Shown piece after piece: positions 42,491 through 45,125 of a DNA stretch of 64,000 nt. The stretch comes from an uncultured Lachnospiraceae bacterium (GTDB lineage: Bacteria > Bacillota > Clostridia > Lachnospirales > Lachnospiraceae). The stretch spans positions 1 through 64,000 of the forward strand of contig CAMOZY010000008.1 of assembly GCA_946631295.1 (NCBI GenBank). Reading direction: 5' to 3'. The notes under the pieces are model-generated. The model did not search any database. It saw nothing but the letters and a program-made list of their open reading frames with translations, and was not told where the DNA came from. The translations under genes were made by a program, and so were the position numbers. Every line of letters begins with the position of its first letter. Position 1 is the stretch's first letter.

Positions 42491-43573
42491 TCAGGCCTTG
42501 GCTGCTTTGTCAGATTTTGCCTTGGGGCTGTCTGCAGCCTTAGCATCATCGGAAGGTTCAAGTCCGTAATGCTCTCTTACAGCCTTATCAACCTCTGCAA
42601 GGATCTCGGGATTCTCCTCAAGGTACTGCTTTGCATTCTCTCTGCCCTGTCCGATCTTCTCACCCTTATAGGCAAACCATGCACCGGATTTAACGATGAT
42701 ATCCGCAGCGGTGGCAACATCAAGAATGTCACCGACCATAGAGATACCCTTTCCGAACATGATATCGAACTCTGCCTCTTTGAAGGGAGGAGCCACCTTA
42801 TTCTTAACAACCTTGACTCTGGTCCTGTTACCGATGACCTCGCCGCCCTGCTTGATGGATTCGATACGGCGTACATCAAGTCTGACAGACGAATAGAACT
42901 TAAGTGCACGTCCGCCGGTAGTGGTCTCGGGATTTCCGAACATGACACCGAGCTTCTCACGGAGCTGGTTGATGAAGATGACCACACAGTTGGACTTACT
43001 GATCACTGCAGTGAGCTTACGGAGCGCCTGGCTCATGAGTCTTGCCTGAAGACCCATATGCGCATCTCCCATGTCGCCTTCAATCTCAGCCTTGGGAACA
43101 AGAGCGGCTACCGAGTCAACAACAACGATATCGATTGCACCGGAGCGGACCATTGTCTCGGCAATCTCGAGAGCCTGTTCACCGCTGTCGGGCTGCGAAA
43201 TGTAAAGATTGTCTATATCAACGCCAATGTTCTTCGCATATACGGGATCCAGTGCATGCTCTGCATCGATGAAGCCTGCGATACCGCCGCGCTTCTGAAC
43301 CTCTGCTATCATATGAAGGGTAACGGTTGTCTTACCGCTGGATTCAGGTCCGTAAATCTCGATGATCCTTCCCTTGGGAATACCACCCTGTCCGAGCGCG
43401 AGGTCAAGGCTGATGGAACCCGTAGGGATCGTCTCAACCTTCATCTGAGCACCGGGCTCACCCAGTCTCATGACGGCACCCTTTCCGTACTGTTTCTCAA
43501 TCTGTCCGAGTGCTGCCTCAAGGGCCTTTTTCTTTTCAGCGTTTACATTAGCATTTTCCATTGTATTACCCAT
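42491..43573 (-). CDS. recA: Recombinase RecA
   Basis: The protein has 360 residues from the ATG at [10 protein letters not shown], which follows GGAAAGGAAA; the ORF's GTG start five codons earlier lies in the ribosome binding site. Walker [10 protein letters not shown] (about 73), the L1/L2 loops and the motifs [27 protein letters not shown] and [15 protein letters not shown] are complete. It drives homologous recombination and SOS induction. The short Ala/Lys/Asp-rich tail is typical. The promoter carries two LexA boxes. Confidence 0.98.
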
Positions 43574-43634
43574 TGATTTCCTTTCCACGTTTTGAAACGT
43601 ATACGCACAGCCTCTGTAAAAAACAGGGCAATGC

Positions 43635-43683
43635 AGGAACGAATGTTCGTATTAGATAATAGAACATCTGTTCACTCTTGTCA
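43635..43683 (-). promoter_or_regulatory. recA promoter with two LexA (SOS) boxes
   Basis: On the minus strand a perfect TTGACA (43678-43683) and TATTAT (43655-43660) are separated by 17 bp. One GAAC-ATCT-GTTC box (43661-43672) fills the spacer; a second GAAC-GAAT-GTTC box (43636-43647) covers the transcription start. Centres are 25 bp apart. Both match the Firmicute LexA (Cheo-type) consensus. Confidence 0.93.
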
Positions 43684-43739
43684 ACTATAAAAATCTTAAC
43701 ATGATCCATGTCCGAAATAATGGACATAAGAAAAACGTG

Positions 43740-43836
43740 ATGCGGCGGAGACCATGGTTATGCTGCCGGTCAGCCGGAAACCGCTTGGTGCATACAGAAG
43801 GAGCACCGATTAAGAATGTAACCTGCATTCCGCCGC
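43740..43836. ncRNA. Candidate structured RNA between cinA and recA
   Basis: A nested fold is visible: P1 TGCGGCGGA / TCCGCCGCA (43740-43748 with 43828-43836, 9 bp), P2 GGTTA(TG) / (TG)TAACC (43755-43761 with 43816-43822), and within it two hairpins, CCGG-TCAG-CCGG (43765-43776) and TTGGTGC / GCACCGA (43784-43790 with 43802-43808). The strand is not decided; on the minus strand a T5 tract follows P1 after 4 bases. A competing CCTGCATT / AATGCAGG hairpin overlaps the P1 3' arm. I do not recognise the family. Confidence 0.5.
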
Positions 43837-43865
43837 AAAAGACGAAATGCAGGATTTATTTCAGA

Positions 43866-45125
43866 TCAGCCGAAATTGACCTTGCTTATATATTCAAGTA
43901 TGCACTCTCTTGCAAGAATAAGTGCATTTTTGACGGAAAGGGCACGAATCTTGTTACGGTCTCCTGAAAAATGGAACTCCTTAACTTTAATCTCACCCTT
44001 TACGCTGCATCCGATGTAGACAAGTCCGACGGGCTTTTCCGCACTTCCCCCGCCTGGGCCTGCAAGCCCCGTCACTGAAATACATACATCGGACTTGGAT
44101 GTGGCCGCACCGCCCTTTGCCATCTCTGTGGCTGTCTGTTTGGAAACGGCGCCGTACTTGTCGAGAGTGCCTTTTTTTACTCCGACGAGTTTTCTCTTGG
44201 CCTTGTTCGAATATGTGACAAAACCGCATTTGAGCACATCGGAAGCTCCAGGAACGCTTACTATCGTTGCAGAAATAAGTCCTCCCGTACATGACTCTAC
44301 GGTCGATAATGTCATCTTGTTGGATGCGAGAAGTTCGACTACGGACTGTTCAAGCGAAATCTCATCCTCTGCAGCATAGACGCTGTTTCCGAAACGCGCT
44401 TTCAGTTCCTTTACCACAGGCTTGACCAGTTTTTTTGCTTCCTTTTCATCAGAACCGAAAGCAGTGACTCTGATATGTACCTCACCTGTCTTGGCATAGG
44501 TTGCGATGGTGGGATTGGACTGCGCATCGATCATATCCATGATCATGGTCTCAGCCTTGCTCTCACCTACACCTACTATCTTCACTGTCCGTGAAAAAAT
44601 AACTCCTGCCCCGAGTCCCTGAAGATAAGGCATGATCTGCGAATCAAACATCGCTTCAAGTTCAATGGGAGGTCCGGGCAAAAGAATATATGTGCAGTTC
44701 TTTGTTTCAAGTATTATTCCGGGCGCTGTGCCGTTTGCATTGGGTACAGCCTTTGCCCCTTTTGGAATAAGAGCCTGCTTCCAGTTATTCTCGGTAGGTT
44801 CTATCCCTCTTTTTGCGAAGTACTCTTCAATGGACCTGCGGCTTTCGGCATCCTCTACAAGGGGAAGCTTCGTAAACTTTGCCACAGCCTCCTTAGTCAT
44901 ATCATCTTCCGTAGGTCCGAGTCCTCCGGACAAAATAATGATATCGCTCCTTGAAGAACTCTCCTTAAGCTGGGACAGGCACCTGTCCATATTGTCACCG
45001 ATGACGCACTGGTTATAGCATTCGATACCAAGGCGTGATATGCGCTCGGCAATGAATGCGGCGTTGGTATTGACTATATTTCCGAGCAGAAGCTCTGTTC
45101 CTACGCAGATTATCTCAGCGTTCAT
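43866..45125 (-). CDS. cinA: CinA family nicotinamide-nucleotide amidase / competence-damage protein
   Basis: The protein has 419 residues with the two usual halves: an N-terminal MoCF-like domain (ILSGGLGPTEDDMTKEA, LPGPPIELEAM) and a C-terminal CinA deamidase domain (TVESCTGGLISATI, SVTGLAGPGGGSAEKPVG). It recycles NMN to nicotinate mononucleotide, with a pyrophosphatase activity in the N half. Its ATG overlaps the pgsA stop by 4 bp; recA lies downstream. The pgsA-cinA-recA order is conserved in Firmicutes. Confidence 0.95.
   Translation of the reverse strand: MNAEIICVGTELLLGNIVNTNAAFIAERISRLGIECYNQCVIGDNMDRCLSQLKESSSRSDIIILSGGLGPTEDDMTKEAVAKFTKLPLVEDAESRRSIEEYFAKRGIEPTENNWKQALIPKGAKAVPNANGTAPGIILETKNCTYILLPGPPIELEAMFDSQIMPYLQGLGAGVIFSRTVKIVGVGESKAETMIMDMIDAQSNPTIATYAKTGEVHIRVTAFGSDEKEAKKLVKPVVKELKARFGNSVYAAEDEISLEQSVVELLASNKMTLSTVESCTGGLISATIVSVPGASDVLKCGFVTYSNKAKRKLVGVKKGTLDKYGAVSKQTATEMAKGGAATSKSDVCISVTGLAGPGGGSAEKPVGLVYIGCSVKGEIKVKEFHFSGDRNKIRALSVKNALILARECILEYISKVNFG

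Follow-up and report, generated by a model that had tools for sequence, protein, structure and literature searches.

recA is mostly described as a LexA-controlled gene, and the spacer that separates it from cinA in this genome raises the question of whether it also contains a structured RNA and, if so, which part of the spacer is kept in relatives. The window (the whole 64,000-nucleotide stretch of DNA analysed) carries look-alikes of rimO, pgsA, cinA, recA and recX, all on the minus strand and read in the same direction; the names were assigned by resemblance and, for cinA (43866-45125, minus strand) and recA (42491-43588, minus strand, probable start codon at 43573), also through close relatives. 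The recA frame opens with a GTG at 43588, and the ribosome site and the relatives indicate an ATG at 43573 or 43561. The cinA-recA spacer spans ~280 bases and contains positions 43740-43836, for which the original prediction drew four helices around a three-way junction, together with a competing hairpin that would act as a switch.

The arms of the drawn fold are present, as are CCTGCATT (43822-43829) and AATGCAGG (43846-43853), and the 97-nt stretch does fold into a closed, branched structure. Its folding energy was -36.8 kcal/mol on the plus strand (z -3.0, with 2 of 200 shuffles equally good) and -38.0 kcal/mol on the minus strand (z -3.4, 0 of 200 shuffles), values that apply to a stretch picked after looking at the sequence. 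The claim that this is more order than expected was not borne out, since a z of -3 or below was reached by 3.1% of non-overlapping 97-nt segments of the same 64 kb, a calculation in which the stretch itself scored -2.7 and -3.0. When the minus-strand minimum-energy fold was compared with 14 relatives, in which such column pairs form standard pairs at a background rate of 43%, its closing stem was paired in 29% of cells, its second stem in 42%, its GGTGC hairpin in 46% and its CCGG inner hairpin in 73%. Upstream of the conserved element described below, neither the GCGGCGG arm on the cinA side of the closing stem nor AATGCAGG was found in any of the 15 other genomes that bear it. The closing stem with its three-way junction and the switch through a competing hairpin are thus genome-specific, and the drawn fold, which shows no compensatory changes in close relatives, fails as a conserved structure. 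Judged by these comparisons, it is most likely a chance property of this genome.

The conserved unit within this stretch is only 43 nt long (43742..43784, presumptively minus strand) and uses other pairing partners. Across 16 species, mean identity was 0.89 within the element, compared with 0.40 upstream and 0.44 just downstream. Read in the recA sense, the consensus is GCGGUNUNNNGCUGAYCNGCNGC-loop-CCANGRUCUCCGCCGC. In every bearer the element lies in the cinA-recA spacer, beginning ~20 bases past the cinA stop codon in some species, and all 16 species belong to one rumen-type Lachnospiraceae clade. BLAST and pattern searches of the genus found 15 bearer genomes; the sixteenth copy, in G002, is diverged and was spotted by reading its spacer, and a covariance model that had not included it also matched it. 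The element is single-copy in its own genome and gave one pattern match per bearer genome, so a repeat or mobile element (REP, MITE), which would occur in several copies, was rejected. A small coding sequence was rejected as well, because G010 and G027 carry one-base indels within the element and the variable positions show no period of three.

Searches beyond these species suggest a narrow distribution. The covariance model gave no significant match at the other 13 recA loci within the genus, nor at 28 close ones from other genera, and across 397 genomes of the family it returned only weak matches outside the genus; none of the top weak matches fetched lies close to recA or cinA, and the ones read resemble coding sequence. 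When 84,980 species were scanned with a pattern, 47 matches resulted; 14 were at recA, all of these in Lachnospiraceae, among them the isolates AC2028 and P6A3 as well as MAGs from gut or rumen. The other 33 occur in varied bacteria with neither recA nor cinA nearby and were taken as chance. No plasmid or phage matched the element by DNA similarity, and the one match in a viral scan, which lacks the CCGCCG end, was likewise attributed to chance.

Two short helices recur in the element. P1 pairs GCGG (43781..43784) with CCGC (43742..43745), and P2 pairs GACC (43768..43771) with GGUC (43750..43753), both arms of P2 reading GAUC in other species; all four arms are given on the minus strand. Among 11 distinct sequences, both helices were paired in all 11, that is, in 100% of cells, and no slid register came near this value. 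In P2, one pair changed from C-G to U-A on both sides in 4 of the 11 sequences, and in P1 a single compensatory change, from G-C to U-A, occurred in G002 alone. Two of the eight pairs of P1 and P2 have therefore changed on both sides, while the other six are invariant and uninformative. On the cinA tree, the P2 change corresponds to one or two events and the P1 change to one, so the covariation points to real but modest support for the two helices, with few events behind it. RNAalifold independently yielded P1 and P2 from the alignment, and of 82 column pairs that vary on both sides, 3 were canonical in all rows on the recA-sense strand, 2 of these being the changed P1 and P2 pairs. An alternative pairing of GCUG with CAGC and GGU with ACC drew no compensatory support.

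Our preferred reading, which we hold only tentatively, is that the element is a bulged-hairpin RNA acting in cis, in the recA sense, within the cinA 3' region or a recA read-through leader. It would lie in the 3' untranslated region of cinA and in whatever transcripts continue from cinA towards recA, with P1 (4 bp) and P2 (4-5 bp) flanking an internal loop that has an invariant GCU on one side and UCCG on the other. In the most likely scheme, a protein (or a ligand) would recognise the hairpin, which would thereby set the 3' end of the cinA message, its stability or its read-through in front of recA, a gene with its own LexA-controlled promoter downstream. That the element is transcribed, from this strand, and has a regulatory role is what we infer. 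The local conservation, the fixed locus and the nested helices kept through compensatory changes argue for a cis-acting RNA, whereas the covariation events are few, the window has no intrinsic terminator past the element, and the element alone folds no better than shuffled sequence, with z of -0.5 and -0.9 on the two strands, all of which argues against it. In the part of the pneumococcal report available (PMC6560143), read-through from cinA to recA with internal start sites is documented; the gene order and the separate recA start site of the Streptococcus pneumoniae cinA-recA operon are as here, but that operon is under ComX control, and the same part of the report mentions no structured element between the two genes.

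Close behind stands the main rival, in which the 43 nt are a DNA regulatory site. This quite possible reading holds that the nested inverted repeats GCGG...CCGC and GAYC...GRTC are bound by a protein dimer or multimer acting on an upstream recA promoter of the form GGACA-N10-TATNAT. Symmetric changes in an inverted repeat look alike under DNA and RNA selection, so the changes in P1 and P2 also fit a DNA site, and the weak single-strand fold and the conserved promoters downstream of the element agree with it. The nearer of these promoters includes a palindrome, TGTCC-N8-GGACA (43709-43726, minus strand), present in the form (G)TCC-N8-GGAC in all 16 bearers, and, 10 bases past it, a -10-like hexamer (43693-43698, minus strand) in the same arrangement in all 16; together (43693..43726) they probably form a second recA promoter, distinct from the element. 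In 12 of the 16 species the element ends 9-11 bases from the palindrome, as a DNA site would lead one to expect, but 6, 16, 41 or 71 bases from it in the other four, and this spacing shows neither a tight promoter link nor full independence. Two further observations count against a DNA site. G002 has 38 extra bases within the P2 loop, which separate the P2 half-sites by that much more, and nevertheless keeps both helices and the internal-loop bases, favouring RNA over a rigid DNA operator. In addition, the pair 18-31 reads G-U, U-G or C-G in 8 of the 11 sequences on the recA-sense strand and is standard in just 2 of 11 on the other strand; these RNA-type wobbles weakly favour the recA-sense strand. 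The G002 element lies at 2921-3001 of L051 and 1274-1354 of L158, and its extra bases can form hairpins of their own.

A small trans-acting RNA, released from the cinA 3' end by cutting or transcribed from a promoter of its own on one or the other strand, is unlikely. The element is short, conserved, single-copy and intergenic, as such an RNA might be, and upstream of it the window has a weak promoter-like site on the plus strand (TTGTCA-16-CATGAT, 9 of 12 matches). However, a conserved promoter for the element was found on neither strand, no terminator follows it in the window, and its constant position beside recA suggests a role in cis. By far the least probable reading is the four-helix switching RNA as first drawn, refuted as a conserved structure since its z of about -3 comes from one sequence and is matched by ~3% of segments here, while its helices pair at about background in relatives and its partner arm is missing in the other bearers; a fold drawn from a single genome may convince while the conserved element within it pairs differently.

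What endures of the original prediction is that the cinA-recA spacer holds a probably structured and uncatalogued element, conserved with compensatory changes. Rfam 15 gave no match in the window at the gathering score; around the element at E up to 10, and in seven relatives at E up to 5, it returned nothing but unrelated chance-level matches. There is no intrinsic terminator downstream of the element in the window to serve as a riboswitch expression platform, and two promoters separate the element from the recA ribosome site. On sequence grounds, then, the element is without a riboswitch expression platform and without an Rfam family. An intrinsic terminator of cinA was considered, but neither the window nor L168 or L163 shows a GC-rich stem with a U run at the element. 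The cinA end of the G016 group is overlapped by a terminator-like hairpin, CGGATGATCTATCCG-TTTTATTTTC (L168 2690-2704, minus strand), which lies upstream of the element and would restrict transcription across the element; the hairpins at the cinA end differ in other groups.

No RNA motif at recA turned up in the literature searched. The element resembles the orphan candidate RNA motifs described by Weinberg et al. (2010, PMC2864571), among others, which are likewise short, conserved, intergenic, fixed in gene neighbourhood and supported by compensatory changes in their helices; it differs in being narrower (one clade, 16 species), with few covariation events, and is a candidate RNA. The main text of that report mentions neither recA nor cinA. 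By its sequence features, the element is a clade-restricted orphan motif, new in itself but of a kind already known. That it represents a new class of cis-acting RNA tying the cinA message to recA expression in this Lachnospiraceae group is a long shot; if true, the SOS recombinase of these bacteria would be controlled by an RNA layer beside LexA. Together, a conserved, possibly RNA-based element and a second conserved promoter would give this abundant family of the gut and rumen further control over its recombinase.

The LexA operator is a distinct feature of the same spacer. The main recA promoter, TTGACA-17-TATTAT (43656..43684, minus strand), has 11 of 12 consensus matches and is conserved in relatives, and two LexA (SOS) boxes, GAACNNNNGTTC, lie at 43662-43673 and 43637-43648 (minus strand). 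The box consensus is that of the clostridial LexA/SOS operator of recA (PMC4234289), which also sits at the recA promoter in this spacer; here the operator is ~70 bp from the element, which has no GAACN4GTTC box. The candidate second promoter lies upstream of this LexA-controlled promoter, and the same arrangement, nGGACA/T-N10-TAnnnT, occurs upstream of recA in other genera. A regulon marked by the palindrome was rejected, as no obvious promoter context surrounds the one further exact copy of TGTCC-N8-GGACA that the genome contains. In several Lachnospiraceae genera the candidate promoter reads roughly GAGGG-N2-GTTTAa/t-nGGACA-N10-TATnAT, without a normal -35; it was seen upstream of recA in L155-L170, L183, L185, L186, L189, L190, L192, L194, L196, L200, L202, L204 and L205. 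Finally, the window's clade has a small hairpin, ACGTTT...AACGT (43587-43601, minus strand), just upstream of the ribosome site of recA; absent from the sister-clade leaders printed, it reads GCGTTT...GGCGC in G019 and G023, so that its pairing seems conserved.
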